Shown piece by piece: positions 2,570 to 20,519 of a stretch of 38,315 nucleotides of DNA. The translations under genes were made by a program, and so were the position numbers. Within the stretch, counting starts at the first letter, position 1; each line of letters opens with the position of its first letter. The stretch covers positions 1-38,315 of the forward strand of contig JAJRYW010000332.1 of assembly GCA_024275555.1 (NCBI GenBank), written 5' to 3'. The stretch is from Calditrichota bacterium (GTDB lineage Bacteria; Calditrichota; Calditrichia; RBG-13-44-9; J075). A model generated the notes under the pieces. The model was not told the DNA's origin, searched no databases, and saw only the letters and a program-made list of their open reading frames with translations.

Positions 2570-3645
2570 GATGCAGCGGCCTCCGCCCAGCGTTCGGAAC
2601 CATTCAGCACCTCGATGGAGATGTCGTCATCTTCTTTCAGGGCCCGGCGGGTAGCCCGCCCGATGACTTTGTCGATCTCATAAGGATGCAGACCGTCGCC
2701 CGGCGATTTGATGGCAAGGTCTTCGCGCCGGATGGTATGACCGGCCGGAAGATCCCGGGCAGCCACAATTTTTTTGCCCATCTTGGTGATCGGGTTGACC
2801 TCACTGTCATACGTCCGCTTGATCCCGTCTCCCAGGGCAGCCTTGGTACGTTCCAAATCGCGCACCATCTTGCGAAACCCGATGGGTTCCAGGGAAAAAG
2901 CATGGTCGGTACCTTTCCAGGTGTGATTGAGGGTGAAATGCTTTTCGACAATCCTGCTGCCCAGCATGTAAGCGGCTACCGCCATGGCGATGCCATTGTC
3001 ATGGGATGACAAACCGACCACAATATCGGGGAAGCGTTCGCGAAAAGTGGTGATGACGCGCAAATTCAGTTCGCTGAATTCAGCCGGATATCCTGCCGTA
3101 CACTGTAAAATGCACAGCTGGGGGTTGCGCGGCATGATGGCGTCATAGGCCCGGTTGACATCTTCCATGGTCCCCCCACCGGTACTGATAATCATTGGTT
3201 TTTGAAATTCGGCGACGTGGGTGAGTAACGGGATGTTTTTCAGCTCGCCGGATGCCATTTTATAAAAAGGCAAGTCGAGTTTTTCCAGAAAATCAGCACT
3301 GGCAAAATCAAAGGCGGTGGCAAACAGGGTGACCCCGATTTCTTTGGCGTAATCCATGAGTTCCTTGTATTCAATGTAGCCGAATTCCAGAAATTCCCGG
3401 TGTTCTCCGTAGGTTGCGCCATAGCTGTTGGGATTGTCATAGGGCTTGTTATAACCTGCCTTGGTAAACAGCGACCGGTTGTCTCTTTTTTGCAGTTTTA
3501 CGGCGTCAGCACCGCATTCTTTCGCCACCCGGAACATCTCTTTGGCGGTCTCAAGTTTGCCCTGGTGGTTGTGGCCGATTTCGGCGATGACGTAACAGTC
3601 ACTGTCGTCTTGAACGATTTTACCGTCCAGTATTATTTTTCGCAT
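2566..3645 (-). CDS. N-acetylneuraminate synthase (NeuB)-family protein with C-terminal SAF domain
   Basis: YVIAEIGHNHQGKLETAKEMFRVAKECGADAVKLQKRD, GLSSHDNGIAMAVAAYMLGSRIVEKHFTLN, SAF-like tail VAARDLPAGHTIRREDLAIKSPGDGL. ATG at 3645 is preceded by GGGAGGAC; the longer ORF to 3738 is probably not used. Confidence 0.9.
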   Translation of the reverse strand: MRKIILDGKIVQDDSDCYVIAEIGHNHQGKLETAKEMFRVAKECGADAVKLQKRDNRSLFTKAGYNKPYDNPNSYGATYGEHREFLEFGYIEYKELMDYAKEIGVTLFATAFDFASADFLEKLDLPFYKMASGELKNIPLLTHVAEFQKPMIISTGGGTMEDVNRAYDAIMPRNPQLCILQCTAGYPAEFSELNLRVITTFRERFPDIVVGLSSHDNGIAMAVAAYMLGSRIVEKHFTLNHTWKGTDHAFSLEPIGFRKMVRDLERTKAALGDGIKRTYDSEVNPITKMGKKIVAARDLPAGHTIRREDLAIKSPGDGLHPYEIDKVIGRATRRALKEDDDISIEVLNGSERWAEAAAS

Positions 3646-3715
3646 TGTTAGTCCTCCCTTGCAAAATAATTGGTTTCCCCGAATACAAAAATTGGTGATG
3701 GGTTGATTAGTTGTT

Positions 3716-3828
3716 GATGTGGCCGCAAAAAGGCACAAAAACTACAAAAAGAAAATTTTATACTTAATAATTACAGTAGGTTATAAGATCAAGATTCAAA
3801 AATTTTGACTTTTTACAAGATTGTCAAA
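3716..3828. repeat. Dispersed intergenic repeat, copy 1
   Basis: gatgtggccgcaaaaaggcacaaaaactacaaaaagaaaattttatacttaataattacagtaggttata...ttttgactttttacaagattg; near-identical copy at 34572. Confidence 0.9.
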
Positions 3829-3880
3829 TATGGATTTATCCCATTATATAGGAACGAACGTTACAAACAGCGCAACGGCA

Positions 3881-4411
3881 TCATTGTTCCCGGGTCCCAC
3901 GGCCGTCCGTCCGGCTTTGTGCAAACATATCACAAACTTCACGTACGGCGCCATAGCCGCCTGGGCGGCTTGTGCGGTATACGGCGTGGGCGATAACATC
4001 CGGATGTGCGTCGTGAACCACAATGGGCAGAGCGACGCACATAAGACAGGGCAGATCGTTGATGTCGTTACCCACAAACGCTACCTCGGCCAGAGAAATG
4101 CCTGACTCCCCGGCAATACTTTCCAGCGCGGCACGCTTGTCCCGGCAGTCCTGTACACAGCGAATCTTCAGCTTGTGAGCCCGGGCTGAAACCACCGGAT
4201 TGGCCTCGGTGGAGATGATAACAGTTTCAATTCCCAGCTGTTCCAGTTTCTGCAGGCCGAGGCCGTCACTTCGAAAACAGCGTACGGCCTCAGTGCCGTC
4301 CTGCAGGACATAAACCATGTTGTCGGTGAACACACCGTCAAAATCAAAAGCGATCAGGCGAATGTTACCGATTATTTTTTCTATCTTATGAGTGATTTTT
4401 ATTTGAGACAA
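3881..4411 (-). CDS. KdsC-like HAD phosphatase (3-deoxy-sugar-8/9-phosphate phosphatase type)
   Basis: IRLIAFDFDGVFTDNMVYV (DxDGV motif I), VIISTEANPVVSARAHKL, VAFVGNDINDLPCL (motif IV). TTG start. Confidence 0.85.
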   Translation of the reverse strand: MSQIKITHKIEKIIGNIRLIAFDFDGVFTDNMVYVLQDGTEAVRCFRSDGLGLQKLEQLGIETVIISTEANPVVSARAHKLKIRCVQDCRDKRAALESIAGESGISLAEVAFVGNDINDLPCLMCVALPIVVHDAHPDVIAHAVYRTSRPGGYGAVREVCDMFAQSRTDGRGTREQ

Positions 4412-4542: not shown

Positions 4543-6363
4543 TCATGGTACCCTACTTGCCGTAGTTTCGTTTGAAAATATTTCCCCGGTCGTGGGTCCC
4601 GCATGGAGTTTGGGATCGGTGCCCGTTTCGGTTTTTTCCAGGTGCAGGCCGGCAGCCGAAGAAACCTCCGCCGGGAAAACCGATCCGTCCTGTATTCGAT
4701 AGGCCCGATCCGCCACTTCCAGAAGGGCGGTTTGGTGGGAGATCGCCAACATGGTAATTTCCCCCCGCAGTTTCCGTAATGTATTACAAATGGCCGCTTC
4801 ACTTACCGGGTCGAGTGCGGTTGTGGCTTCGTCGAGTACCAGCAGTTTGGGCTTGCGTACGAGCGCGCGCGCGATGGCAATGCGCTGACGCTGGCCGCCG
4901 GACAGCTTGAGGCCGCGCTGGCCCACCGAGCTGTACATGCCTTTGGGCCTTTTTTCGACAAACTCCCAGATTCCTGCCTTGCGTAGCGCTGCTTCCGCTT
5001 CCCGTTCCGTGACATTCGGATCTCCCAGAGAGATGTTTATAAAAATAGAATCGTGAAGCAGCAGCGTTTCCTGGGGTACGTAGCCGATCATGCGCCGCCA
5101 TTGGTGCAGATCCGCCTGTGCCAGCGGTAGGTCGTCGAGCCAGACCTCACCGGTTTTCGGACGTAGCAGGCCGATGACCAGGTCCACAATGGTTGTTTTG
5201 CCGGCGCCCGACGGGCCGACGATTACGGTGATTTCCCCGGCTGGAAAGACAAGCGATATATCGTTGAGGACGTTGTTTTTCGAATAAGCAAACGATACTC
5301 GCTCCAGGCGAATGGCCCGTTTTAACTCCGGTTTCCGGTCCCCAAGCTTCGGTTCGCGCATTTTCTGTGCGATCTCAAGGGTCTGGGTCATGGACCAGTA
5401 ACTGTTTTCGAGGACACTCATTGTTTGATACTGTTTCTGGATTTTTCCGAGCTTGCCCAGGATGCGGCCAAGTAGCAGGATTAAAATCATGACGGCTGTC
5501 GGTGCCATGCCCCAGATAACAATCGTCACATAGATGGCAAGCAGCATAAAGGTCACTTTCATGGCCTCCTGGTAGGCTCCCAGTGACTCTTTGCTGATAA
5601 TTTCTTTTTGCAGGGCATTTTTTAATTTATTGGTTTTGCCAATCAGGATGGCTTCCGCCCGATCTTCACGTGCCATGGCTTTGAGGGGTTTGATGGATAG
5701 AATGCTGTTGACAAATTCCGAAGACATGGACTTTCTTACTTTTACCTGGCGGCGGCCGGCCCGTCTGGCCTTTTTTACAAACCGATTTAGCGGATACCAG
5801 AAGAACAACCCCGCTGCCAGGGCAATCAGGGTCGCTTTCCAGGATACCATCATGGCGATCACGACATAAATCACCGTGTGGATAATAACGACGATGATGG
5901 AAACGCCGGTGGCATAGGCCTTGGCTGTTTGAGACGTTTCACCTCCCATGGCGGCCGCAAGCTTGCCGATGGGCTGGCTGAGATGAAATTCCCAGCGCGC
6001 CAGCATATATGCCCGTAACATTTGCTGGCGTAACTTTGTCGTTAAATGCGCCACCGTGTATCCGACGTTGCGGTTGGCAATCAGAACCAGCACGGTTTTC
6101 AACAGCATGGCGGTCAGGATCAGCATCAACAGGAGTTCCAGCGTCGGGGTCAAGCCGATGGCGTTAAAAATGTCCTGGATCATCTTCCCGGCCGCGGTTG
6201 ACTGTTTGCCGGTTGCACCCTGGGTTTCTCCCAGTGCGATAGTCAGCAGTGGCAGCATCGCCGACAAGCCAATACCTTCGGCGATGCCGGATAACAGCAG
6301 GGCGGCCAACATCGACAGGGTTCGCCACGGGTACTGTCGGAAAATGATAATAACAAGGCGCAT
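4543..6363 (-). CDS. ABC transporter, fused TM domain plus ATPase (MsbA-like lipid exporter type)
   Basis: Walker A VGPSGAGKTTIVDLVIGLL, signature LSGGQRQRIAIARALVRKPKLLVLDEATTALD, N-terminal TM segments. ATG at 6363; the ORF extension to 6840 overlaps the upstream gene and is rejected. Confidence 0.92.
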   Translation of the reverse strand: MRLVIIIFRQYPWRTLSMLAALLLSGIAEGIGLSAMLPLLTIALGETQGATGKQSTAAGKMIQDIFNAIGLTPTLELLLMLILTAMLLKTVLVLIANRNVGYTVAHLTTKLRQQMLRAYMLARWEFHLSQPIGKLAAAMGGETSQTAKAYATGVSIIVVIIHTVIYVVIAMMVSWKATLIALAAGLFFWYPLNRFVKKARRAGRRQVKVRKSMSSEFVNSILSIKPLKAMAREDRAEAILIGKTNKLKNALQKEIISKESLGAYQEAMKVTFMLLAIYVTIVIWGMAPTAVMILILLLGRILGKLGKIQKQYQTMSVLENSYWSMTQTLEIAQKMREPKLGDRKPELKRAIRLERVSFAYSKNNVLNDISLVFPAGEITVIVGPSGAGKTTIVDLVIGLLRPKTGEVWLDDLPLAQADLHQWRRMIGYVPQETLLLHDSIFINISLGDPNVTEREAEAALRKAGIWEFVEKRPKGMYSSVGQRGLKLSGGQRQRIAIARALVRKPKLLVLDEATTALDPVSEAAICNTLRKLRGEITMLAISHQTALLEVADRAYRIQDGSVFPAEVSSAAGLHLEKTETGTDPKLHAGPTTGEIFSNETTASRVP

Positions 6364-6404
6364 CGTTTTTAGAAATCCAAACTTTCTGTTAATTAAACGT
6401 CCGA

Positions 6405-7595
6405 TCAGCCGGTTTGAGCGGTTTGATAAGCGGCAGCAAATGCCTGACCAATGTGCTCGATCTGCTCCGATGTGTGACCGGCACTCATACTGCAGCGCAG
6501 CAAAGCGCCGCCATCGGGCGTGGCCGGCGGCAGCACCAGGTTGACGTACACACCGTGTTCCACCAGTCGATTCCAGATGGCCAGGGCTTCGACTTTGTCT
6601 TCCTGCCTGATGGCGATAATGGGACTGGATTCCGGTCCCAGCGAAAGACCCAGGTTCTGCAGCTTTTGATAAAGCATGTCGGCATTCTTCCAGAGGCGGC
6701 GGCGCAACTCCGGTCGCGTGCGCAAAATATTTAATGCCTTGCGTGTCGAGGCGATGATCCCCGGTGACGACGATGCAGTGAATACGTAGGGCCGGCTTGC
6801 ATAGCGCACCAGGTCCAGTTGCCGATGGTTGCTGACGCAAAACCCGCCGATGGTGCCCAGGCTTTTACTGAAAGTGCCGACGATAAAGTCCGTCTCATCT
6901 TCCATACTGGTCTCCTCGGCAAGTCCCCGCCCGTTTTCGCCAAGAACGCCCAGGGAATGGGCCTCGTCTACCAGCAGATAAGCGCCGTATTTGCGTTTTA
7001 CCGCGGCGATGTCCGCCAGGGGCGCACGATCTCCCAGCATGCTGTAAAGGCCTTCCACAACAATCAGGACATTTGTGTTGCGTTTCGCAAGCCGTCGCAG
7101 CCGTTTTTCCAGATCATTTACATCGTTGTGCCGAAAGCGAATGACTTCGGCGCTTCCCAGGCGGCATCCATCATAAATGCTGGCATGGCAGTCCGCATCC
7201 AGCAGGATGACCTCATCGGGACCCACCAGGGTGGAGAGCATCGCCAGGTTGGCAATATAGCCGGTGGAAAAGACAATCGTATTGCGGTATCTAAAAAAAT
7301 CCGCCAACTCCTTTTCCAGGGCCACATGGCCTGAAAAGGTTCCATTGGCCATCCTGGATCCGGTGGTGCCGGTCCCCGCCCGGCGGGTGGCCTCGCAGGC
7401 GGCCTTGATACAATCGGTATCAAACGAAAGCCCCAGATAATTATTGCTGCCGGCCAGGATCATGCGACGGCCGTTGACAACAGCTTCTGTGGCCGAAATA
7501 ATCTCTTCCATGACGATATTGAAAAAGGCACTGCATTGCTGTTCAATTGATTGACGGGCAGCTGCCAGCGGCTGGAATTTATCGAAAATATTCAT
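6405..7595 (-). CDS. alpha-oxoamine synthase family aminotransferase, probable serine palmitoyltransferase (Spt)
   Basis: PLP fold-type I AOS motifs: GSNNYLGLSFD, GTGTTGSRMANGTFSGHVALE, DADCHASIYDGC, LLVDEAHSLGVLGENGRG, GTFSKSLGTIGGFCVS. Spt rather than BioF/Kbl is inferred from the ACP/CerR/FAAL neighbours. Confidence 0.85.
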   Translation of the reverse strand: MNIFDKFQPLAAARQSIEQQCSAFFNIVMEEIISATEAVVNGRRMILAGSNNYLGLSFDTDCIKAACEATRRAGTGTTGSRMANGTFSGHVALEKELADFFRYRNTIVFSTGYIANLAMLSTLVGPDEVILLDADCHASIYDGCRLGSAEVIRFRHNDVNDLEKRLRRLAKRNTNVLIVVEGLYSMLGDRAPLADIAAVKRKYGAYLLVDEAHSLGVLGENGRGLAEETSMEDETDFIVGTFSKSLGTIGGFCVSNHRQLDLVRYASRPYVFTASSSPGIIASTRKALNILRTRPELRRRLWKNADMLYQKLQNLGLSLGPESSPIIAIRQEDKVEALAIWNRLVEHGVYVNLVLPPATPDGGALLRCSMSAGHTSEQIEHIGQAFAAAYQTAQTG

Positions 7596-7618
7596 TGTCA
7601 GCCATCCTCGTTCAATTT

Positions 7619-7846
7619 TTAGATTTGCAGAACAAGGTCCTCAACGGTACGTACATCCGGTAGGATATTTAACGGAATAGAGATATCAAAGCGGTCTTCC
7701 ACGATTTCCAGAATCTTCATGACTTTTAGTGAATCAAGGCCCAGTTCGCCCACCAGATCCGTCTCCGGCCTGATTGCATATCCCTCCGGAACAAATGATT
7801 GGAGGATTTGGTAAATCTGTTGCAACATGTTTCCGTTTGCCTGCAT
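7619..7846 (-). CDS. acyl carrier protein (AcpR-like)
   Basis: 75 aa; phosphopantetheine site ELGLDSLKVMKILEIVEDRFDI. Confidence 0.93.
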   Translation of the reverse strand: MQANGNMLQQIYQILQSFVPEGYAIRPETDLVGELGLDSLKVMKILEIVEDRFDISIPLNILPDVRTVEDLVLQI

Positions 7847-7896
7847 AACCTTTCATTTCCTTCCTTCGACCTTCGACATTTATACACAGCCGTGAT

Positions 7897-8838
7897 TTAC
7901 ACCCCGGTGTGCCACTGCAAAGTGCGCTGCAGACCCTCGGCCAGCAGGATTCGGGGAGTCCAGCCGGTACTTGTGCTCAGGGCCCCATTATCGCTGATCC
8001 AGTCGGTATGCTGCAGCTCACGAATTTTCCCGGGGGTTAGCATGGGTGCATAACCGAAAGCCCGGGCGGAGACCAGGTTAAGCATGGCGATCAGTTTTGC
8101 CAGGATCAGCGGGACCCTTATGCAAACCACGGGTCTGTCGCCTCTCAGGTGTCTGGCCGTGGCGATTACATCATGCCAGGAGTATCCGCCGGGTTTTCCA
8201 TCATGCAGCTCAAACGTGCGGCCCTGACCGTTGTTGCAATTCAGCCAGCGTACAATACCCTCTACCAGGTCTTCCACAAAAATCAGAGAAAAACGGCCCT
8301 GGCCGGACCCCGGCAGCGGAGCAACGCCCCTTGCCATCCGGCGCCAGACAGGCAGCAGCTCCCGATCGCCCGGGCCATATACCGCACATGGCCGAAAAAC
8401 GGTCCATGGCATTTTAGCAGATTCAGCGGCCAGTACCTCCTCTGCCAATCGTTTGCTGGCAGCGTAAGGAGATAGCTGAGGTTCCCGGGCTGCCAGCGAT
8501 GACATCAATAAAAAACGCGGCGCCGGGTGTTGTTCGGTCGCCGCTTGTACCAATTGTGCCACGCCATTTACATTTACATGATTGAATTGCGCCTGGGTGG
8601 CTCCGCGCACCGTGCCGGCGCAATGTACTATAGTATCCACTCCGCGGACCAGCTGCAGGAGACTTTGATGGTCTTCAAGGTCGCCCTCTATCCATTCGGC
8701 GGGAAGGCCGGCGGGCCGTTTGGAAGCCGATGCAGGGCGGAACAGAGCGCGGATATGCCAGCCGTTGGATGTCAATCGTCGTATCAATGCGCCGCCGATA
8801 AATCCCGTACCCCCGGTTAAGGCTAACGTGCGAGGCAT
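7897..8838 (-). CDS. NAD-dependent epimerase/dehydratase family reductase (CerR-like)
   Basis: ALTGGTGFIGGALIRRL (GxxGxxG), VDTIVHCAGTVRG, SPYAASKRLAEEVL (YxxxK-like), AVYGPGDRELLP. CerR role inferred from position. Confidence 0.85.
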   Translation of the reverse strand: MPRTLALTGGTGFIGGALIRRLTSNGWHIRALFRPASASKRPAGLPAEWIEGDLEDHQSLLQLVRGVDTIVHCAGTVRGATQAQFNHVNVNGVAQLVQAATEQHPAPRFLLMSSLAAREPQLSPYAASKRLAEEVLAAESAKMPWTVFRPCAVYGPGDRELLPVWRRMARGVAPLPGSGQGRFSLIFVEDLVEGIVRWLNCNNGQGRTFELHDGKPGGYSWHDVIATARHLRGDRPVVCIRVPLILAKLIAMLNLVSARAFGYAPMLTPGKIRELQHTDWISDNGALSTSTGWTPRILLAEGLQRTLQWHTGV

Positions 8839-9010
8839 GGAGCTCTCCCATCAGACGCATTTTTAAACGATTTATTCATCCGCCTTCACGTTCAAACAGG
8901 GCGAAAACCTGATCTGCAAGCTGAACAAAAAAGGCGTTCGGCAGTGATTTCCGCTGCTTCACCCGTCTTTGATTCATCGGTTATGCTTGTTTGTTGTATC
9001 AAATTCAAGG

Positions 9011-10792
9011 TTAGACAGCCCGCTGGCGGAGCGTTGCGGCGTAAAGGTCTACGCTGGGTTCTTTTGATAGTTTGGCAGAGATCCGTTTCAGATACTCTTT
9101 GCGAGCTCCCGAGCGGGACAGCTTGCCGGACGTCGTTCTGGGTAAGGTATTGCGAGGCACGAGTTCAATCAGACAGTCAATGCCAAACTCCTTGCGTACC
9201 AGGCTGTGTAAACGCTCACGCAATTCAGCGCGCTTCTTTTCATCTGATTCACGGCACTGGACCATCATAACGGCCTGCTCCTGCCCATCCTGGCCGGGCA
9301 CCGAAAAGGACGAGGCATCCCCCGTACGTACTTCGGATTGCTGTTCCGCCACATACTCCAGGTCCTGGGGCCAGATATTGCGACCGTTGATGATGATCAG
9401 GTCCTTTTCACGCCCTGTAATTGCGAGGCTGTTTCCAATGCGATAGGCCAGGTCGCCGGTATTCAGCCAGCCCTCAGGAGATAAAACTTCCCGGGTGGAT
9501 CTGAGATCGCTGAAGTAACCGGACATGACGCTGGGTCCCCGGACATAGAGGGTTCCACAGTGCCGTTCCGGCAGCACCCGCCCCCGGGTATCTCTGATTT
9601 CCACTTCGTAACCTGGTAGCGGTGCTCCGCAATTAATAAAGGTATGTGAGGGTGTCGTCTCGTTGTCGTGAGCGGGATGCAGGGGCAGGGCTTTTTGCTG
9701 TTCAGCAAGCGCTGTGCGCTCCACATGATCGACATCGATTCCCTGGCCCAGGGGGGCAAAGCTTACCGCCAGGGAACATTCCGCCATACCATAGCAGGCT
9801 ACGTATGAACGTCGGTCAAACCCGCTGGGTGCTAAAAGACTGGCAAATTTATCAAGCGGATCGGTGCGAATTGTTTCCGCACCGACGCCGGCAAGACGCC
9901 AACTGCTAAGGTTGAACTTATCTGTTTCATTTTCCCGAATGCGGTGGGCGCACAATTCGTAACCAAACGGCGGACTGATGGACAGGGTCGCTTGATTTTG
10001 GGAAATCAGGCTCAGCCACATCCGCGGACGCATGGCAAAATCCCGGGTACTCAGGAAATCCACCGACAGCTGAGCCGCCATGGGGGACAACACCAGGCCG
10101 ACGAGTCCCATATCATGGTAATAGGGAAGCCAGGATACCGCCCGGTCACCGGGCCGAACCTGGATGCCGTATTTAAGAATAGCGAACAGGTTGCTCAGCA
10201 CAGCTTTCTGGGTGATCATCACGCCCCGGGGAAATCGAGTGCTGCCGGAAGTGTACTGCAGGTAGGCCACCTCGTTTGGTTGAGAGGGTCGCAACCGGGT
10301 ATTGGGTTCCATCAGATCGTAATAGTCCTGTGGAGTGCCGATAAAACGTAATTTTAATCCCTGGGCGGCTTCCGTCAGGTAGGGAAGAAAGTCCTCGGAG
10401 GCCATGGCAATTTCAGCCTGGCAGATTGACAGCAGTCTTTCCAATTGGGAGACATATGCCTGGCGGCCACCCAGGTGGATTGAAGCCGGCAGCGGAACGG
10501 GAATCAAACCTGCGTACTGACAGGCGAAAAAGAAACGCATAAAGTCAGGATGGGTTTCCGCCACCAGGGCTACGCGCGCACCGTGGTTAATTCCCAGGTC
10601 CATAAAACGGCGTGCCAGCGACTGGGCGTCTTTCTGTAATTCTGAGTAGGGCAGCCGTGCGTATAATTTTCCTCCACCGGTATAAAAATTATACCCGGTT
10701 TTTCCCCGGGCAGCGTAGTCGAGTGCTTCTGCTAGCGTAGAAAAATCTGCAATTCGTAACGGCAGATCATTAGCGGCCGGTGTAGCATCCAT
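9011..10792 (-). CDS. fatty acyl-AMP ligase / acyl-ACP synthetase (FAAL family, AasR-like)
   Basis: YLQYTSGSTRFPRGVMIT, VSWLPYYHDMGLVGLVLSP, YGMAECSLAVSF, WLNTGDLAYRIGNSLAITGREKDLIIINGRNIWPQDLE. ATG at 10792 follows AAGGAGG. Confidence 0.92.
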   Translation of the reverse strand: MDATPAANDLPLRIADFSTLAEALDYAARGKTGYNFYTGGGKLYARLPYSELQKDAQSLARRFMDLGINHGARVALVAETHPDFMRFFFACQYAGLIPVPLPASIHLGGRQAYVSQLERLLSICQAEIAMASEDFLPYLTEAAQGLKLRFIGTPQDYYDLMEPNTRLRPSQPNEVAYLQYTSGSTRFPRGVMITQKAVLSNLFAILKYGIQVRPGDRAVSWLPYYHDMGLVGLVLSPMAAQLSVDFLSTRDFAMRPRMWLSLISQNQATLSISPPFGYELCAHRIRENETDKFNLSSWRLAGVGAETIRTDPLDKFASLLAPSGFDRRSYVACYGMAECSLAVSFAPLGQGIDVDHVERTALAEQQKALPLHPAHDNETTPSHTFINCGAPLPGYEVEIRDTRGRVLPERHCGTLYVRGPSVMSGYFSDLRSTREVLSPEGWLNTGDLAYRIGNSLAITGREKDLIIINGRNIWPQDLEYVAEQQSEVRTGDASSFSVPGQDGQEQAVMMVQCRESDEKKRAELRERLHSLVRKEFGIDCLIELVPRNTLPRTTSGKLSRSGARKEYLKRISAKLSKEPSVDLYAATLRQRAV

Positions 10793-11626
10793 AGCAACTA
10801 TAGCCTCCTTGTTTAAATCAAGTCCGCGCAGGCGATTCACTCCCCCAAGAATCATCTGCTCAACTTAAAATCTGCAGCCTATCCCCTGATCTTCATCCTT
10901 TGCCATTTCAATTCAGGGCAGTGCTGCCGATGGTTGGGCAATACCTGATTTGCAATTAAATGTCAACTTCCGTACATCGCAATCCGGCTTAAATGGGTAT
11001 ACTACCGCAAAAGATGTTTTTTTTTGCGATAGCATGCCTGCTCATTTTCGATCATTCCGGGGGTTAATTTTACACATATAGATCGTTTAAGAGAGCGCCA
11101 AATCTTACAATAGACAAATGCCGCGTCTGCGGGGACGTTCGAACGCAAACCTTTATCACCTGCGGGTTAAGAGTCGTGACCGAAACGCAGTAAAGGCCGT
11201 GTTTTGTCGTCCTGCCGAATTTTTCGGCTCCTGCCGATTGCCATATTTTAGTAGAAAAATTACTGGGTTAACCAAAAAAAACTACAATTTTAAAAAAGCC
11301 TACCATGTATTTTTGGAACTGTAAAGTAATTGTCTTAAATATTTTAAAAAAATTTAAAGTTAAGATGCCAAAATTATTTAATTAATCAGTAATATCGTTA
11401 GCAGTCAGGAAAATTTAATGTCGATAATTTCAATTAACCCTGAACCTGAAATCGATTACAAGGAAATATGAAAAATTCTTCAAACAGTAATTATCTATTC
11501 GGGTTTGTCAATAGCGAATTTTCTGAATGCCCGGTGCGCAACACACAACCCAGTTTTCAGGTAATAGTGCACCGTTGAAAGATCCACAATCATTCGAACC
11601 CGTGAACGCTTGCCATGAGATCGCCG

Positions 11627-12424
11627 TTACCGGTCGCACAATATCTTTTCCACGAGTTGCCAATCGCCGGGCGAATCGACATCTATGGCTGCTTCCGGGA
11701 ATGGCATGACCACGGCACCCGCTTTAATTCCCATACGTTGCGAAATCCGGCCTAAAGCTTCAGTGAGGGACAAATGTCTCAGTAGATAACGCAGGACCGT
11801 TGACCACCCCAAAATCGTAATCATACGCAGGGGGTTTTTACGCCGGGTTTCGATGCTACGCCAGAAATCCGCCGCCAGCCGCGCCTGCGGGGTCAGGAAG
11901 GCAAACAGGTTACAGCCGCAGTAAGCCCCATCCTGCAAGCGAATGGCGGTTCTGCGGGTTTCGGGATAGGCGGCTTGCACCACTTCATGCAAAGCTACCC
12001 CCACCACGACGTCACAATCCGTCGTCTGCGCCCGGGAACAGAAATAATCCACAATACGGGTGTTTAGCAGGGCATGGTCGGCGGTGGTCAAAAGAATGGG
12101 GGTTTCGTCCGCCAAGGATTCGAGGACATGGAGGGCGCTCGCACTTGGGGTTGCCTGATTTTCACTCCACTCGACCCTGCCCGAGGTGATCAGCTGCCTC
12201 AGGTCCGGCTCCTGTTCAAGGATAGATCTGGGGGGGCCGCAAAGGATGCGGGTGTTTATCTGGGGTGATGCGGCCAGGGTAGCCAGCACGCGCAAGACCA
12301 TCGGTATGCCCCCAACAGGGATCATGGCTTTATAGCGAGCACCGGCGGCTTCAATCAGGGGATCTTTCGCTCCGCGGTCTGCGGCTAGTACTATTGCAGT
12401 AAACGCGGTCTGCGGATTGTGCAT
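11627..12424 (-). CDS. MobA-like NTP transferase domain protein
   Basis: N-terminal TAIVLAADRGAKDPLIEAAGARYKAMIPVGGIPMVLRVLATL (NTP_transf_3-like), TTADHALL acidic motif, C-terminal IDVDSPGDWQLVEKIL. Confidence 0.8.
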   Translation of the reverse strand: MHNPQTAFTAIVLAADRGAKDPLIEAAGARYKAMIPVGGIPMVLRVLATLAASPQINTRILCGPPRSILEQEPDLRQLITSGRVEWSENQATPSASALHVLESLADETPILLTTADHALLNTRIVDYFCSRAQTTDCDVVVGVALHEVVQAAYPETRRTAIRLQDGAYCGCNLFAFLTPQARLAADFWRSIETRRKNPLRMITILGWSTVLRYLLRHLSLTEALGRISQRMGIKAGAVVMPFPEAAIDVDSPGDWQLVEKILCDR

Positions 12425-12840
12425 AGGCCCTTAGTCCAAAAATTTCAGGTGTCGGTGTTCCCCGCTTCCGCTTCGCTTCAGACGGGATCTTCGTCAGGTT
12501 TCAGCACCTCAACTCCCTGAAACCTCGTGTGAAACTACACAGTGTTGGAACAGCGAACCGCAGAATATCGAATATTGAATGTCGAAGGAAGGAAACGCTT
12601 CGCTAAATCTTTTATAAAACAGACAGAATACATTATTCGACGTTGGACGTTCGATGTTCGGCGTTCATTTTTTTAGTTAACCCGTAATATAAAAATAGCA
12701 AAGACCAAAGTTTCTTCTACGATCAGACTGGACGCCCGCGGCCAGAGGCTCCGCTTATATGAAACTAGGCCAAAATGGCAGTTTCTCTTTCGATTAAATT
12801 TTTTCCGAGCGTCGTCTCGGAAAAGGCTTAGAGGCTCTAA

Positions 12841-14010
12841 TCAAAGTTTTTTGTTGTAAATGCGATAGGTTTTATAGACCCTGCCGCCGATTGATTCGAT
12901 AATATTGCGCATTCGCATGTTGTCCTCCAGTATCCAGGAAAGCTCAACTTCCTTGATGCCGAGTTTCCGGCCAGGTTCCAGAGTTGAGGCAATCATCATG
13001 AATGCGAGCGCGGCCCCCAGCAGGTTGTCATGGTAACGGCACCGTACGCCCATTAGGGGAATGCGCGCGGATTGGGGGTATTTTACCTTCAGTCGCCACA
13101 GCATTTTGAGCCAGCCGAAGGGCAGAAGCCTTCCATTGAGATCCCGGATGACCTCATTGATGTTCGGCAGAACCACGAGAAAGGCAGCGGGCTCTCCGTT
13201 CACCTCGGCAATTTTGACCAGTTTTTCATTGGCCAGCATTTTCAGATCCTTTCCCAAATGCTCGAATTCTACGGCGGTGAAGGGAACAAAGCCCCAGTTT
13301 TGTGACCAGGCATCGTCGTGAATGCTCTTGATAACTGCTAGTTCGGCGCTAAAATTGGATTTTTGAAGCGACCGGATGCGCACATTTTTTTTCGCCCTTT
13401 TGGTGACGGTCTGCATCGCGGCGGAAGGTTTAAAATCCGCATCGATAATGTACGCCAGCAGGTCCTTTTCTTTGGTGTACCCATTTTCAGCCAGGCGATT
13501 GCCATAATATGGCCGGGCATGGCCCATCATCAGCGACGGTGGGGTGTCAAAACCGTCCACCAGCAATCCAAGCTCCTGGTTGATGGATAGATTAAACGGC
13601 CCGCTGATGCGTTGCATTCCCTGGTTGCGCAGCCAGGACTCGGCCGTATCCAGCAATGCCTGAAATGTCCGGGTATTGTCTTCTGCTTCCAGCATCCCGA
13701 AAAAGCCGGTGGCATTCCGGTACCGTTCGAGATAAAGACTATCTTTCTGAGCACTGATTCGGCCCACGGGCCTGCTATCGCGGTAGGCCAGCCAGGAACA
13801 ATAGGCGGCATGCTTGAAATAAGGATTTTTCGGTGAAAGGTGCTCACGCCTTTCCAGCACCAGCGGGGGAACCCACATGGGATCGTCCCCATAGAGGGAC
13901 CATGGCAGGCGAATAAATTCATTCAGCGCACGGCGCCCCCCCACTTTGATAATTTGCAATGATTCATGACGGTGATGTCCGGGGGGCTGATGGTGTTGAA
14001 CAGGTTTCAT
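12841..14010 (-). CDS. GNAT-fold N-acyltransferase family protein, candidate bacterial ceramide synthase (bCerS-like)
   Basis: 389 aa; EFIRLPWSLYGDDPMWVPPLVLERREHLSPKNPYFKHAAYCSWLAYRDSRPVGRISAQ, as I recall it for the family often misannotated as dATP pyrophosphohydrolase that includes Caulobacter bCerS. C-terminal VELSWILEDNMRMRNIIESIGGRVYKTYRIYNK is GNAT-like. Confidence 0.72.
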   Translation of the reverse strand: MKPVQHHQPPGHHRHESLQIIKVGGRRALNEFIRLPWSLYGDDPMWVPPLVLERREHLSPKNPYFKHAAYCSWLAYRDSRPVGRISAQKDSLYLERYRNATGFFGMLEAEDNTRTFQALLDTAESWLRNQGMQRISGPFNLSINQELGLLVDGFDTPPSLMMGHARPYYGNRLAENGYTKEKDLLAYIIDADFKPSAAMQTVTKRAKKNVRIRSLQKSNFSAELAVIKSIHDDAWSQNWGFVPFTAVEFEHLGKDLKMLANEKLVKIAEVNGEPAAFLVVLPNINEVIRDLNGRLLPFGWLKMLWRLKVKYPQSARIPLMGVRCRYHDNLLGAALAFMMIASTLEPGRKLGIKEVELSWILEDNMRMRNIIESIGGRVYKTYRIYNKKL

Positions 14011-14390
14011 GGCTTTGATTCCGCTGGATTGTCCAAAATGATTTCAGGGTGCTGACGATTTTAAGCAGGGGTATAATACACAGGTTGGTTAGCCGGGTCA
14101 ATATCGAAAACAGCTAAATAAAATGGAAAAGATCAGCCGGCTGCAGCGAGCACCGGATTTGATTGTATAAATAGAACATTTTGATAATTAAAATATTAAG
14201 AAATGTTTATTTTTTAAGTAATAAACTCTTTACAGGCCGTATTTTTTGCATTATGCAATACGTCATTAAAAAGATAGTTCGCTTCCGGTAAAACTTCGTA
14301 ATCCCTTAAAAACATCTATATTTTAAGTATGTTGTAGAAATTCCGAACCATCTAATTAGTCAGGTGAAAAGGGTCTGCAGAGGAGCACGG

Positions 14391-14858
14391 ATGAATAAAA
14401 ACACGGAAATATTGATTTATGAACTGGCTTTCCGGGTGCGTTTATACATAGCATCCAGGGTTCTGGATAAAAATGTAGCTGACTTGACTGATCGTGAAAG
14501 CCTCATACTTGAACTGATCGGGATGCAGGGCCGGATGAGTATATCGGAAATTGGAAAATTGTACCCAAAGGTGAGTAACAGCACCATTTCCACGACGATT
14601 ACAAAGCTATGGAAAGACAAAAAACTTGTTGATAAAAAGATATTGCCGGAAAATCAACGGGTAACAACCGTAAGTTTAACTGAAAAAGGCGAACAGGTAT
14701 TGGCGGAAATAAGAAGCTCCCAGTCGCATTTTTTCAGCACAATCACCCAATCCCCGGGCCTGATTTCCGATCAAGTCGAACATTTTCAGCGGCTTTTAAC
14801 AAATGCCATTGTTTTTTTTGATAAAACCCTCGGGCTGAAAGCTGACAAGGGGCCCTGA
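14391..14858 (+). CDS. MarR-family transcriptional regulator
   Basis: wHTH: LELIGMQGRMSISEIGKLYPKVSNSTISTTITKLWKDKKLVDKKILPENQRVTTVSLTEKGEQVLAEI. ATG at 14391 preceded by GAGGAG. Confidence 0.85.
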   Translation: MNKNTEILIYELAFRVRLYIASRVLDKNVADLTDRESLILELIGMQGRMSISEIGKLYPKVSNSTISTTITKLWKDKKLVDKKILPENQRVTTVSLTEKGEQVLAEIRSSQSHFFSTITQSPGLISDQVEHFQRLLTNAIVFFDKTLGLKADKGP

Positions 14859-14869
14859 ATGATAAAAAA

Positions 14870-15955
14870 TTGATCATCGACCGTTACATAATCCGTGAAA
14901 TCAGCAAGCCCATGGCGGCTATATGCGCGGTTCTGGTAGCCATCTTTGCCAGCTACAGTGCCGCACAGTATCTTGCTGATGCTGTCAGTGGTCTGTTTCC
15001 GCCGGGAGCGTTGTTGTTGATGCTGGTGCTGAGAATCGCCATCGCCCTGGAGGTGCTGCTGCCCACAACCCTGTATCTGTCTGTTGTGATTGCTCTCGGA
15101 CGTATGCACAGAGACTCCGAAATGATTGCCCTGTCATCCTGTGGTGTCGGAACTTCCCGGGTACTGAAGTCCGTTTTCTATTTTGCATTCGCCATTGCCA
15201 TACTGGTAGCCGGTCTATCGATCTATGTCCGTCCGTGGGCCTTTAAAGAAGTTTACCGGTTACAGGCATATGCTAAGAGCGACTTTGATATTTCCCGGAT
15301 GGAAGCCGGAAATTTCTATGAAATAAAATCAGATCGTCTCGTTATATTTGCGGAAAAGGTAGACCACAAAGCTAATCGGGCGGAAGGGGTTTTTATCCGC
15401 AGCCAGGATGGACAAAACCTGCAGGTAATTTTTGCCAAGCAGGTCTATCAGCGTACCGAAGCAGTGCATGGCAGGCGGGTGTTACTATTGCAGGATGGAT
15501 ATCTCTACGAGTTTACGCGTAGCGGCGAAAAGGGTAAAATCACTCAATTTCAGCGAGTGACCTATTTAATATCGCCCAATGAGTCGATCGCACTTAAGTA
15601 TAAACGTAAAGCGGCCTCCACCGGGCATTTGTTTCGCTCACGCAAACTCAAGGATATCGCAGAATTCCAGTGGCGGCTATCCACACCCTTGTCGACCCTG
15701 CTTCTGGCACTACTCGGTGTGCCTTTGAGTCGAACGACTCCACGCCAGGGAAAGTATGTAAAGGTGGTCGCGGCTGTCTTGATTTTTGCAGTTTACTACA
15801 ACATTACCATCGTAGCCAAGAATTGGATAGAAAAAGGTGTTTTAAACGCCGTTCCTGGAATCTGGTGGGTTCAGGTCTCACTGGCAGGACTTGTCTTGGT
15901 GTTGCTGTGGCGTACGGGCGATGTGTTCGTACGCCGTGGTACAAAAATGACATAA
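14870..15955 (+). CDS. LptF/LptG-family permease (LptF-like)
   Basis: IIDRYIIREISKPMAAICAVLVAIFASY N-terminus, central periplasmic beta-jellyroll-like region, C-terminal TM block LSTPLSTLLLALLGVPLSRTTPRQGKYVK. TTG start. Confidence 0.9.
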   Translation: MIIDRYIIREISKPMAAICAVLVAIFASYSAAQYLADAVSGLFPPGALLLMLVLRIAIALEVLLPTTLYLSVVIALGRMHRDSEMIALSSCGVGTSRVLKSVFYFAFAIAILVAGLSIYVRPWAFKEVYRLQAYAKSDFDISRMEAGNFYEIKSDRLVIFAEKVDHKANRAEGVFIRSQDGQNLQVIFAKQVYQRTEAVHGRRVLLLQDGYLYEFTRSGEKGKITQFQRVTYLISPNESIALKYKRKAASTGHLFRSRKLKDIAEFQWRLSTPLSTLLLALLGVPLSRTTPRQGKYVKVVAAVLIFAVYYNITIVAKNWIEKGVLNAVPGIWWVQVSLAGLVLVLLWRTGDVFVRRGTKMT

Positions 15956-15998
15956 TCGTTCCGGGGAACAAGCTATTGCGGCCAGGCCGGTACAACAG

Positions 15999-17066
15999 AT
16001 GAAAACGATTGATCGTTATATTGCCAAGCATACTATCTGGGGCGTTCTGTCGGTTTTATTTTTATTCGTTATTCTCTTCAGTTTTCTGGAACTTTTAGCG
16101 CAAATAAACGACATCGGAAAAGGTAATTACCAGATGCTGGATGTTTTTGTTTTTACGGGCTATACGGTGCCTAAACGAATAGTGGATTTGATGCCGGTGA
16201 GTATCCTGCTGGGCAGTATTGTTGCCTTGGGATTGTTGGCCGACCACAATGAGCTTACCGCCATGCAGGCTGCCGGTGTGTCGGTTGGAAGAATTTGCAG
16301 GTCTGTTCTTTCCGCGGGTGCCCTGCTTCTGCTGATTGTCTTTGTGCTGGCGGAATTCCTTGCCCCGCCAATGGAACAATATGCTCGAATCCGGCGTTCA
16401 AAGGCGATTTATGGTCAAGGTATATTTCTGACGAAAAACGGGTTCTGGGCTCGCCACGGCCATTCCTTCGTTCACGTCGGCAAAATCTTTTCCGGTGGTA
16501 TGGTGACCGATGTCGAAATTTTCGAACATGACAACCAGGGACGTCTAACCAGTTTTATTCATGCGCGCGGGGCAACGGTGCTTGACAATAGCCAGTGGTT
16601 GCTCAAGGGTATTAAACAAATCATCTTTTCAGAGCAAGGCATCAAAACACAAAATCCACCCAGCCTCATGTTAAATTCATTCCTGAGTCTTGAGCAGGTC
16701 GGTATTCTTGAGCTTCCCCCCGCCAGTCTCTCGATCTCCGATTTATACAAATTTGTGCAGGGATTGCGGCAGAGAGGACAGAATGAACAGCGATATGCGT
16801 TGGCATTTTGGCAGAAGCTAAGTCTTCCGATTACGAATCTGGTCATGGTGATGCTTTCCCTGGCATTTATATTCGGACCTACGCGTTCAATAACGGCCGG
16901 ACGCAGGATCGCTATGGCCTCCCTGGTGGGGATTGCCCTTTATCTGGCGTATCAGATAATCGGGCATCTGGGGTTATTGTTTGAGCTGCCGCCGGCAATC
17001 ACCACCCTGACACCGGTGCTGGCTGTGCTGGGGGTGGCTCTAAAGATGCTGAAGCGTGCTGCCTAG
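15999..17066 (+). CDS. LptF/LptG-family permease (LptG-like)
   Basis: KTIDRYIAKHTIWGVLSVLFLFVILFSFLELLAQINDIGKGNY, LMPVSILLGSIVALGLLADHNELTAMQAAGVS, FWQKLSLPITNLVMVMLSLAFIFGP. Confidence 0.92.
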   Translation: MKTIDRYIAKHTIWGVLSVLFLFVILFSFLELLAQINDIGKGNYQMLDVFVFTGYTVPKRIVDLMPVSILLGSIVALGLLADHNELTAMQAAGVSVGRICRSVLSAGALLLLIVFVLAEFLAPPMEQYARIRRSKAIYGQGIFLTKNGFWARHGHSFVHVGKIFSGGMVTDVEIFEHDNQGRLTSFIHARGATVLDNSQWLLKGIKQIIFSEQGIKTQNPPSLMLNSFLSLEQVGILELPPASLSISDLYKFVQGLRQRGQNEQRYALAFWQKLSLPITNLVMVMLSLAFIFGPTRSITAGRRIAMASLVGIALYLAYQIIGHLGLLFELPPAITTLTPVLAVLGVALKMLKRAA

Positions 17067-17227
17067 ATCTGGAATGTCTGATTTGGAATGACGAATGTCG
17101 AATGTCGAATTAAGGCTATAATTTATCCAATCAATTATTCAACCCGCAAACTATTCAACGGGGTCTGGATTTGGGATTTAAGAATTATTGGTGCCTGGAC
17201 TTTTCCCGATTATGGATGCAACTGTAC

Positions 17228-18148
17228 TTAAATATCCATTTCCAGTTCGGGGATAAACCGCCGATTGTTCGGGGAATAGACGTGCACCTTCATGTGGATG
17301 CCCCAGCCGGTGGCATTGCGCCTGAAACGGTAGATGTGATACCGGGCCCGACGTTCCGGTCTGGGGTCTGAGGCGGAAGCTGACGGAATTCCGATGACGG
17401 GGATTTTTCCCATCGGCACCTCCAGCAGGGCTTGACAACTGCGATGGGCATGGCCGTGCAGTACCAGTTCTGCACCGCAGCGTTTCACAACCGAGCGAAA
17501 CCGGTCGGCATCCGTCAGGCGTTTCCGCCAACCAACCGTCGCGGCAACCGGTGGATGGTGGATTAACACGACGCGCAGCAGCTGTCTGCGTCCGGTTTCC
17601 AGCAGGATTTGTTCCAGCCGTTGCAGCTGGACCTTGCCGATGGTGCCGACGGCCAAAAGCGGGTTGACGGGCCGTGCGGTGCAAACACCGATTATGGCTA
17701 TTCGATCGCGTATTCGCAAGACAGGATAAGTGATCTCAGTATTTGTTCCCGGTGCTGTTCCGGGAGGTTTTTCGTCGCAAGCCATGTAGTCCGCCCAGTG
17801 GGCGAAAGTGTTTTCCCAGATTGTTTTAACATACATGTCGTGGTTGCCGGGAATCACCGTAACCTGCCAAGAGGGCCCCAGGCACTGGAGCCATTTTGCA
17901 GTCCGGCGAAATTCTTCGGTTCGGCTGAGGTGCGTCAGATCCCCGGTAATGACGATATGATCGGGATGGCCGCTTTTCAAATCCTGCTGCAAGACGGCGA
18001 GGATTTCGTTGCTGTACCCGGCGTGCCGATGCAGCCACCATTTCAGGTATCCAAACAGGCGTTTATTTAATAGCTCCGGCACACGGATACCGTCAGGGCA
18101 ACAGCAGTGGGGATCGGAAAAGTGGGCTAATGTGAATGTCTCATCCAT
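17228..18148 (-). CDS. calcineurin-like metallophosphoesterase
   Basis: LAHFSDPHCC, HIVITGDLTHLSRTEEF, VIPGNHDMYV, LIHHPP, LVLHGHAHRS metal-binding motifs. Confidence 0.92.
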   Translation of the reverse strand: MDETFTLAHFSDPHCCCPDGIRVPELLNKRLFGYLKWWLHRHAGYSNEILAVLQQDLKSGHPDHIVITGDLTHLSRTEEFRRTAKWLQCLGPSWQVTVIPGNHDMYVKTIWENTFAHWADYMACDEKPPGTAPGTNTEITYPVLRIRDRIAIIGVCTARPVNPLLAVGTIGKVQLQRLEQILLETGRRQLLRVVLIHHPPVAATVGWRKRLTDADRFRSVVKRCGAELVLHGHAHRSCQALLEVPMGKIPVIGIPSASASDPRPERRARYHIYRFRRNATGWGIHMKVHVYSPNNRRFIPELEMDI

Positions 18149-18194
18149 TGCTTGCCATGGTTTTTATGCAGGGTTAGGCCCTTATCGGGCTTTA

Positions 18195-18214
18195 TCTGAC
18201 AACATGTTGTCAGA
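18195..18214. promoter_or_regulatory. Perfect 20-bp palindrome, candidate operator
   Basis: TCTGACAACATGTTGTCAGA is identical to its reverse complement; lies between the divergent metallophosphoesterase and lipid kinase genes. Confidence 0.6.
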
Positions 18215-18504: not shown

Positions 18505-19560
18505 ATGGCCAAGATCTGCTTTGATAATTCGTCTCTAAAAGCTGTGACGGATACCGGTGATGCACCGGCGTCCATCGCAAATCGGTCGTTTAGCGGGGGG
18601 GTGTTGAAAGTGGGTGTGCTCAGCAATCCGTTTAGCGGCGCCAATCGAAACGGCCTGGGTCCCGTTAAAAAAGTGCTGACCGGGTATCCGCAAGTCCTGC
18701 ATTGTGAAGTTCAGACACCGGCGGATATAAAACTGGCGCTGGCCGGTTTCGCAGAACGGCAGGTGGATATCCTGGCGGTAAACGGGGGCGACGGGACCGT
18801 CCATGCGGTGTTGACCGCCCTCTTTAATCACAGGCCGTTTGTCCCACTGCCCCTGCTGGCTCTTTTGCCGGGAGGTACGGCTAATATGCTGGCCAAAGAC
18901 TTGGGCTTGAAAGGATCCCCGGGAAAAGCTTTGCGAAGGTTGCTGGGCTGGGCCTCCACCGGGAATGCAGATGCCGTCGTCGAACAGCGGGCGGTGTTGC
19001 AGGTACAGGCGCCTGGGCTTTGTGAACCGCTTTTCGGATTGTTTTTCGGTGCAGGCCTAATTTATCATGGAATCCGGTTTTTTCACGACAGGGTCAAAAC
19101 CCTGGGCCTGCGCGGCCGATCGGCCCAGGCGTTGATTGTGGGCCGCTACCTGCTGGCGCTCGCGGCAAAAAACAGGGATGTTGTCAGTCCGGTGTCCGTG
19201 GACATCGGACTGGATGGAAAACGGACGGAGGGCCAGCAATGCCTGCTGGTGCTTATCAGCACCCTTGAAAAGCTCATTTTAGGGTTTCGCCCTTACTGGG
19301 GCTGTGAAGAGGGGCCGTTGCGGTTCACCGCCGTGTGTGCCCGCCCGCGGCGCGTGTTGCGGACGGTGCTTGGCCTAACATGTGGTCTAAACAGCCGGCA
19401 CCCCGGGACGGAACACGGCTACCTCAGCCATAACGCCTATGCGATAGATCTAAATTTTCAAGGCGGCTTTGCCCTGGACGGAGAATTGTACATGCCGGCT
19501 GTCGGCTGCGGTCCCGTGGTGTTGCAAAAAGGCGGCCAGGCACCATTTTTGCGGTTGTAA
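18505..19560 (+). CDS. diacylglycerol/sphingosine/ceramide kinase-family lipid kinase (DAGK catalytic domain)
   Basis: KVGVLSNPFSGANRNGL, VDILAVNGGDGTVHAVLTAL (GGDGT motif), LALLPGGTANMLAKDLG. Ceramide kinase activity inferred from context. Confidence 0.85.
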   Translation: MAKICFDNSSLKAVTDTGDAPASIANRSFSGGVLKVGVLSNPFSGANRNGLGPVKKVLTGYPQVLHCEVQTPADIKLALAGFAERQVDILAVNGGDGTVHAVLTALFNHRPFVPLPLLALLPGGTANMLAKDLGLKGSPGKALRRLLGWASTGNADAVVEQRAVLQVQAPGLCEPLFGLFFGAGLIYHGIRFFHDRVKTLGLRGRSAQALIVGRYLLALAAKNRDVVSPVSVDIGLDGKRTEGQQCLLVLISTLEKLILGFRPYWGCEEGPLRFTAVCARPRRVLRTVLGLTCGLNSRHPGTEHGYLSHNAYAIDLNFQGGFALDGELYMPAVGCGPVVLQKGGQAPFLRL

Positions 19561-19562
19561 CC

Positions 19563-20519
19563 ATGCAGATACCATTTGAAATTGTCGAGCAGATCCGCAG
19601 GAAAACCTCGCATTCGGCCTCCCCGCCTATGCAGGCTCTAATCACCAGTATTATGTCGCGCTACGGTGAAGCTGTCCAGGCGGTTTTATATTACGGGTCC
19701 TGCCTGCGCAAAGGCGATGAACTCGATGGGATCGTAGACCTGTATGTGCTGGTGGACACATACCGGTCCGCTTATCCCGGACGTCTGCTGCCGATGGTTT
19801 TTAATAAAATACTGCCCCCCAATGTTTTTTATTTGGAAATACCCTTTGAAGGTGGCATGGTGCGAACCAAGTATGCGATTTTTTCCGTCACTGACTTTCA
19901 GCGTGGCGTATCCAGACGCTGGTTTCATTCCTACGTATGGGGGCGATTTGCCCAACCGGCGGGCCTTTTGTATGCTCGCACTGCTGAAGTCGAGGACCGG
20001 GTGATAAACGCCCTGGCCCAGGCCGCTGTGACCTTTATTACCCGTGTGCTTCCCCGGGCGGCAGACAGGTTTTGCGCCAGGCAATTGTGGTGCCGTGGTC
20101 TTTTACTCAGCTACCGTGCCGAACTGCGGGCGGAACGGTCGGATAAGGTGGCCCGCCTGTATGATGCCTCGTCGGAACACTACGAGCAAATAACCCGTGT
20201 GGCCCTGGTCGGGGTTCCGTTTCCCGTTAAGATGGAGCCCGATTCGAAGCCGGTCAGTTACCGGGCCCGCATTCCTCTTCGCGTTCGTCGGTTCAGCCGT
20301 TTCACGTGGGCCGTCAGGTCGCTGCAGGGCAAATTGCTTTCAATCCTGCGTCTTTTCAAAGCCTGGTTCACGTTCCGCGGGGGGATGGATTACATTCTCT
20401 GGAAGGTGGAACGGCATTCAGGGGTTACCGTGGAGGTGACTCCGCGGCTGCGTCGGTTTCCGCTGTTGGCGGTTTTCGTACTCTCCTGGCGGCTTTACCG
20501 ACGTGGAGCTTTCCGTTAG
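19563..20519 (+). CDS. nucleotidyltransferase-fold protein, candidate Tam41/MMP37-like CTP:phospholipid cytidylyltransferase
   Basis: AVLYYGSCLRKGDELDGIVDLYVLVDTY (YGS...D.D-like), ILPPNVFYLEIPFEGGMVRTKYAIFSVTDFQRGVSRRWFHSYVWGRFAQPAGLLYA resembles the remembered Tam41 block (KYGVVSME..D...W..FYLAGRLQKPVKIL). ATG is 2 nt after the kinase stop. Confidence 0.55.
   Translation: MQIPFEIVEQIRRKTSHSASPPMQALITSIMSRYGEAVQAVLYYGSCLRKGDELDGIVDLYVLVDTYRSAYPGRLLPMVFNKILPPNVFYLEIPFEGGMVRTKYAIFSVTDFQRGVSRRWFHSYVWGRFAQPAGLLYARTAEVEDRVINALAQAAVTFITRVLPRAADRFCARQLWCRGLLLSYRAELRAERSDKVARLYDASSEHYEQITRVALVGVPFPVKMEPDSKPVSYRARIPLRVRRFSRFTWAVRSLQGKLLSILRLFKAWFTFRGGMDYILWKVERHSGVTVEVTPRLRRFPLLAVFVLSWRLYRRGAFR

Follow-up and report, generated by a model that had tools for sequence, protein, structure and literature searches.

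The 38,315-nucleotide contig JAJRYW010000332.1 (positions 1 to 38,315 of the forward strand, hereafter the window), assigned to a Calditrichota bacterium in assembly GCA_024275555.1, very probably carries at 4543-20519 a locus for the synthesis, head-group modification and export of sphingolipids, of the AcpR-dependent (Caulobacter or 'rhodobacterial') type and on a contig from an uncultured, Desulfobacterota-like and sulfate-reducer-like bacterium. This assignment, made from sequence, draws on the genes present, the family placement of their products, the active-site residues of the serine palmitoyltransferase Spt, the folds modelled for the ceramide synthase bCerS and for CpgC, and the recurrent linkage of the genes in other genomes. 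An initial annotation had proposed a bacterial-type ceramide route from five co-directional genes encoding an alpha-oxoamine synthase (AOS), an acyl carrier protein (ACP), a reductase, a fatty acyl-AMP ligase (FAAL) and a GNAT acyltransferase. All five were found at 6405-14010, on the minus strand, and the domain evidence agrees. The position given for the ceramide genes was thus correct, but the locus is wider, with predicted head-group and transport genes reaching to about 20.5 kb; the greater part of it, including a MobA-like gene inside the interval, had been omitted. The genes of the interval are as follows.

6405..7595, minus strand: Spt, predicted serine palmitoyltransferase (AOS; 396 aa; NF047599)
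7619..7846, minus strand: AcpR-type ACP (75 aa; PP-binding domain 2.7e-10; DSL phosphopantetheine site)
7897..8838, minus strand: CerR-type reductase of the NAD-dependent epimerase family (313 aa; PF01370, Epimerase, 6.8e-31)
9011..10855, minus strand: AasR-type FAAL, predicted acyl-AcpR synthetase (614 aa; NF006624)
11627..12424, minus strand: MobA/CofC-like nucleotidyltransferase, CC_1153 orthologue by position (265 aa; PF12804 1.8e-13)
12841..14010, minus strand: bCerS, predicted bacterial ceramide synthase, tandem GNAT (389 aa; tree and AlphaFold model)

The Spt protein scored 628 bits with the NCBIfam model NF047599 (cut-off 500), and 341 bits with the BioF model, below the threshold of 426. 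Against solved structures it reached 424 bits with Sphingomonas SPT, to which it is 51-52% identical, compared to 217 bits with Kbl, 206 with cysteate acyltransferase and 166 with BioF. In a tree of 42 AOS sequences, it fell in the Spt clade (100/100) together with the Caulobacter, Sphingomonas and E. coli enzymes, its neighbour being the Spt of a Desulfobulbaceae metagenome-assembled genome (MAG; locus L077). An identity as BioF, Kbl or cysteate acyltransferase was rejected on the curated-model scores, the structure-match bits and the tree. These results support the assignment of the window AOS to the AcpR-dependent Spt family, with a predicted conversion of serine and acyl-AcpR to 3-oxo-sphinganine.

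The residues that bind pyridoxal phosphate and substrate (H137, D210, H213, K244 and R367) are kept, but they are common to every AOS in the tree and therefore do not discriminate, and the amino-acid substrate is not fixed by sequence. The synthase and the acyltransferase might then make another product, such as an alanine-derived 1-deoxyceramide, a cysteate-derived sulfonolipid, or a compound of the 7-keto-8-aminopelargonate (KAPA) or aminoketobutyrate type, and a correlation of 1-deoxyceramides with Desulfobacterota and/or Bacteroidota is known from the Black Sea (PMC11334938). We consider this very unlikely in view of the bit scores above, the position of the protein in the Spt clade and the full AasR/AcpR/CerR/bCerS context.

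The acyltransferase was placed in a tree of 37 sequences, where it paired with its L077 counterpart (100/99) inside a clade (100/100) that includes the bCerS of Caulobacteraceae and Sphingomonas; a related but distinct GNAT group lay elsewhere in the tree. On its own the protein gave no Pfam match above cut-off; PF00583 matched 25 of 36 members of the bCerS family. Its AlphaFold model (predicted local distance difference test, pLDDT, 91) matched tandem GNATs with an E-value of 8e-16. Membership in the bCerS family, with a predicted N-acylation of the long-chain base, is supported by the tree and the model. The initial annotation had named an AOS grouping with BioF or Kbl and an acyltransferase outside bCerS as the outcome that would speak against its reading; both proteins grouped with Spt and bCerS at 100/100, lending support to the predicted bacterial-type ceramide route.

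A comparison of all window genes with 80 named spt loci showed the same core in other genomes. In the window, AasR, CerR, AcpR and Spt are contiguous in the order of Caulobacter CC_1165-CC_1162 (PMC11324152), as had been stated from the sequence alone, and dedicated acpR and aasR genes lie beside spt. This FAAL-CerR-ACP-Spt order is kept across many phyla, and the ACP gene adjoins spt in 79 of the 80 loci. The FAAL scored 788 bits with NF006624 (cut-off 600), and its syntenic homologues at spt loci are 42-62% identical; those of CerR are 32-55% identical (37% for Caulobacter, L081). The MobA-like gene adjoins bCerS in most beta-, gamma-, deltaproteobacterial and Nitrospirota loci and in Phenylobacterium (L113); a Caulobacter CC_1153 mutant lacks CPG2, a product of the ceramide phosphoglycerate (CPG/CPG2) pathway (PMC11324152). 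Since the five-gene arrangement recurs in most of the 80 loci, it is not a product of chance.

Beyond FAAL-CerR-ACP-Spt in fixed order and bCerS beside the MobA-like gene, the genes that recur around spt are LptF/LptG, a metallophosphoesterase, an ABC exporter and a kinase of the diacylglycerol (DAG) kinase type followed by a gene devoid of Pfam hits. In the window these are as follows, with one further gene, a regulator.

4543..6360 (approximate start), minus strand: ABC exporter with membrane and ATPase domains, directly downstream of spt (PF00005 6e-33; PF00664 1e-15)
14364..14858, plus strand: MarR/HxlR-like winged-helix regulator, divergent from bCerS (PF13463 6.8e-7)
14870..15955, plus strand: LptF-type permease, sphingolipid-locus copy (TIGR04407 345 bits, cut-off 230)
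15999..17066, plus strand: LptG-type permease, LptF partner (TIGR04408 344 bits, cut-off 240)
17228..18148, minus strand: metallophosphoesterase, CC_1158-type (PF00149 2.5e-14)
18505..19560, plus strand: CpgB-type ceramide kinase (PF00781 9e-16; GGDGT motif)
19563..20519, plus strand: CpgC, predicted Tam41-like CTP:ceramide-1-phosphate cytidylyltransferase (starts 2 bp after CpgB)

Six genes beyond the five initially proposed match the Caulobacter phosphosphingolipid region. By position and sequence, the MobA-like gene corresponds to CC_1153, LptF/LptG to CC_1155/CC_1156 (the second LptF/LptG copies of Caulobacter), the phosphoesterase to CC_1158, CpgB to CC_1160 and CpgC to CC_1161, which together with the ceramide genes form the sphingolipid region of Caulobacter (PMC11324152); roles of the Caulobacter genes come from mutant and enzyme work (PMC11324152, PMC10331486, PMC12275187, PMC9386255).

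An enzyme assay identified CpgB as a ceramide kinase (PMC10331486). Its counterpart in the window shares 43% identity with the L077 kinase and, across 298 aa, 30% with Phenylobacterium CpgB (E 4e-22), whereas the alignment with E. coli YegS spans only 51 aa; these comparisons make it an orthologue of Caulobacteraceae CpgB rather than a YegS-like kinase. The phosphoesterase is syntenic in 23 spt loci, with identities of 33-49%. CpgC is 52% identical to its L077 counterpart and about 30% to Caulobacteraceae CpgC, and YGS...DxY is invariant in an alignment of 25 members. The Pfam Tam41 family (PF09139) matched two CpgC family members (1.7e-6), and a CpgC profile retrieved Tam41 from the PDB (E 0.004). 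In the AlphaFold model (pLDDT 88), the five best structural matches were all Tam41, from E 8e-11 (6ig4) to 6e-8 (7ecd). Tam41 being a CDP-DAG synthase, this fold supports a cytidylyl activation of ceramide-1-phosphate; the modelled likeness agrees with an earlier proposal, drawn from an InterPro domain, in which CC_1161 uses a nucleotide to activate ceramide-1-phosphate (PMC11324152).

For the transport genes, we analyzed the relationships of LptF. Two LptF/LptG pairs were found in seven spt-locus genomes (the Desulfobulbaceae MAG of L077, Geobacter, a Deltaproteobacteria MAG, Pseudomonas, Azotobacter, E. coli and Thiohalobacter), and the window LptG shares 47% identity with its counterpart at the L077 locus. 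In the LptF tree, 15 gamma-, deltaproteobacterial and Nitrospirota copies that are from spt loci or locus-like, including that of the window, formed one group (94/96). This group is separate from the housekeeping LptF of E. coli and Pseudomonas, and a 100/99 split divides it from the probable housekeeping copies found in the Desulfobulbaceae, Geobacter and Deltaproteobacteria genomes. A housekeeping identity of the window LptF is thus not favoured, given its grouping with spt-locus copies. The alphaproteobacterial locus LptF formed another branch. Some rows of the tree are long-branched, and its result is to be read as a lead and not as a settled history. In the literature searched, with most subscription journals outside its scope, a relevant link of LptF/LptG to sphingolipids was found only in PMC11324152, in which sphingolipid transport by LptF2/LptG2 was proposed, but not investigated, in Caulobacter. 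The ABC exporter has homologues adjoining spt in at least 10 loci (L055, L059-L062, L064, L069, L076-L078), 44-49% identical. According to PMC11087976, bacteria had as yet no identified sphingolipid flippase or transporter, and we propose the exporter as a candidate flippase with a putative role in sphingolipid transport.

It could be argued that the locus makes ceramide only, and that the CpgB- and CpgC-like genes, the phosphoesterase and LptF/LptG are unrelated neighbours, namely housekeeping permeases and a generic lipid kinase. The extra genes lie beyond the MarR-like gene and mostly on the opposite strand, the scores of LptF and LptG are those of ordinary equivalogs, and CpgA and CpgD are missing from the window. 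We regard this as unlikely, because head-group and transport genes recur around spt in L077, L113, L103, L110, L125 and others, CpgB is of the Caulobacteraceae and not the YegS kind, and the locus LptF stands apart from the Desulfobacterota housekeeping LptF.

Several points nevertheless weigh against a complete synthesis, head-group and export locus. The ceramide and head-group products are predictions from genes. CpgD makes CDP-glycerate and CpgA is required for the second phosphoglycerate (PMC12275187); neither was found in the window, nor was a close orthologue among the contigs of the bin, and CPG2 itself may therefore not be made. Candidates for CpgA and CpgD on bin contig C98 were rejected, being 26-30% identical to CpgD, compared to ~40-58% among spt-locus CpgDs, and lying in a different context. 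The ABC exporter has a putative sphingolipid substrate, and support for the LptF locus clade is moderate (94/96). Finally, bCerS lies 416 bp from MobA and MobA 771 bp from FAAL, and the genes are on two strands; a single operon, or co-expression, may be considered as a candidate arrangement only.

The contig (C241) was binned in a genome of 4.86 Mb and 691 contigs with a contamination of 5.23%. Its DnaK and GatA grouped with genomes labelled Desulfobulbaceae, Geobacter and Thermodesulfobacteriales (100/100), whereas a second DnaK in the bin nests in the bin's own family and a second GatA groups with the bin's class. It is thus probable that the contig was misbinned, and its source looks like an organism on the Desulfobacterota side. 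The description of the stretch as a Desulfobacterota-type genome was therefore right in broad terms, although the contig probably does not belong with its bin; for the same reason, the lack of CpgA and CpgD in the bin says nothing about the real host. GC content and tetranucleotide profile did not separate the contig from the bin.

In the bin's class, 35 of 41 genomes matched NF047599 at E <= 1e-100 with 355-395 bits, below cut-off (the window itself excepted). These AOS genes mostly lie beside a bCerS-like GNAT, often together with a CerR-like gene, and no FAAL or ACP match was seen near the pairs within the ~4 kb loci examined. One such pair is carried by bin contig C568 (L048). The class pairs fall outside the true Spt and bCerS clades, and a bCerS-like GNAT alone is therefore an unsafe marker for the AcpR-dependent pathway. 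By sequence, the class AOS/GNAT/CerR-like set may represent a second, broader sphingolipid-like gene set with a putative product.

If the contig truly belonged to the binned genome, that genome would have two AOS/GNAT sphingolipid-type systems, one native and one horizontally acquired. The binning itself, the similar GC content, the presence of the second pair on C568 and the fact that the window scores above the NF047599 cut-off while no relative in the class does so all fit such a case. We hold it to be most improbable given the placement of DnaK and GatA with other genomes, the second copies of both in the bin and the contamination of the bin, and the idea of one genome with both a class-typical pair and a transferred locus was dropped after these trees.

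Under the reading of a sphingolipid synthesis, head-group and export locus, in which every reaction, product and transport step is inferred, AasR would activate a free fatty acid and load it onto AcpR, and Spt would condense acyl-AcpR with L-serine to 3-oxo-sphinganine. N-acylation by bCerS and reduction by CerR would then yield dihydroceramide; published work disagrees on which of the two comes first. CpgB would phosphorylate the ceramide, and CpgC, as a Tam41-fold cytidylyltransferase, would activate the resulting ceramide-1-phosphate, with CDP-ceramide as the probable activated form, so that a polar group, for instance phosphoglycerate, can be transferred. Passage of the product through the inner membrane, and from there in the direction of the outer one, would fall to the ABC exporter and the dedicated LptF/LptG pair. 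We tentatively suggest, with slightly more doubt than confidence, that sphingolipid loci of the delta-, gammaproteobacterial and Nitrospirota type carry their own LptF/LptG and ABC flippase as a module spread between phyla, that these LptF/LptG were recruited separately from the alphaproteobacterial LptF2/LptG2, and that CpgC is a Tam41-type maker of CDP-ceramide.

Among the remaining features, the MarR/HxlR-like gene is a possible regulator of the locus by its position only, and none of the 80 spt loci gave a match to it (E<=1e-5). An Rfam scan of the window gave no match, and promoter and terminator scans gave counts near the shuffled expectation. Downstream of the ABC exporter (1757-4411), a short-chain dehydrogenase/reductase, a NeuB-type synthase and a KdsC-type phosphatase resemble a set for nonulosonic acid or a related sugar acid. 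Flanking CpgC (20616-23050) are a radical SAM protein, with weak matches to the lipid enzymes Tes and HpnH, and an LpxL-type acyltransferase, which are possible lipid genes. The spt loci L059, L064, L066, L072, L073 and L076 have CpgD and the MobA-like gene and no CpgB or CpgC match within their flanks; their head group may differ, or cpgB and cpgC may lie elsewhere.

The proposal that sphingolipids were new to this lineage did not hold, since Spt-like genes in Desulfobacterota, and probable production of sphingolipids by them, were reported in 2024 from the Black Sea (PMC11334938). Earlier accounts of the AcpR/AasR-dependent route concern alpha-, beta- and gammaproteobacteria, and deltaproteobacterial SPTs were placed in a different, Bacteroidetes-like subgroup (PMC9386255). 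The window adds to this a nearly complete locus of the Caulobacter type that lies outside these three groups and includes predicted genes for head group and transport. The window locus and its relatives place the AcpR route in genomes labelled Desulfobacterota, Nitrospirota and Gemmatimonadota, supply named candidates for the function of CpgC and for the envelope carriers of bacterial sphingolipids, and may help to attribute the anaerobic sphingolipids of marine lipidomes.

The window locus can be compared with several known systems. The Black Sea Desulfobacterota have Spt-like, CerR and bCerS genes in the same phylum, correlated with sphingolipids in the water column; that study covered these three genes and not the head-group or Lpt genes, and many of its Spt-like proteins lie outside the classical Spt clade (PMC11334938). 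CpgC shares its fold and the YGS...D motif with the mitochondrial CDP-DAG synthase Tam41 (PDB 6ig2, 6ig4, 7ecd), but is only ~17% identical to it, and its proposed substrate is ceramide-1-phosphate instead of phosphatidate. The E. coli spt-yghO locus (L133) likewise has FAAL-CerR-ACP-Spt, bCerS (yghO) and an adjacent second LptF/LptG pair, but, unlike the window, no CpgB or CpgC match within 10 kb flanks; use of acyl-AcpR has been demonstrated for the Spt of E. coli B (PMC9386255). Among 5426 complete E. coli genomes, a locus of this type (spt, yghO and second lptF/lptG) was matched in 4587, and in 4024 over >=80% of its length, as a sequence match only. With the Caulobacter crescentus region CC_1168-CC_1152 (PMC11324152), the window shares the AasR-CerR-AcpR-Spt order, bCerS beside the CC_1153-type gene, and CpgB, CpgC, the CC_1158-type phosphoesterase and LptF/LptG nearby; it differs in that spt is followed by an ABC exporter, no CpgA, CpgD or LptC2 could be found in the window, and LptF/LptG lie on a different branch from the alphaproteobacterial LptF2/LptG2. 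The Desulfobulbaceae MAG AUK272 (L077) has, unlike the window, CpgD between LptF and bCerS and CpgA before CpgB, but otherwise covers the whole gene set between the ABC exporter and CpgC, both included and the MarR-like regulator excepted, with the order mostly kept and identities of 72% for Spt, 64% for bCerS and 52% for CpgC.

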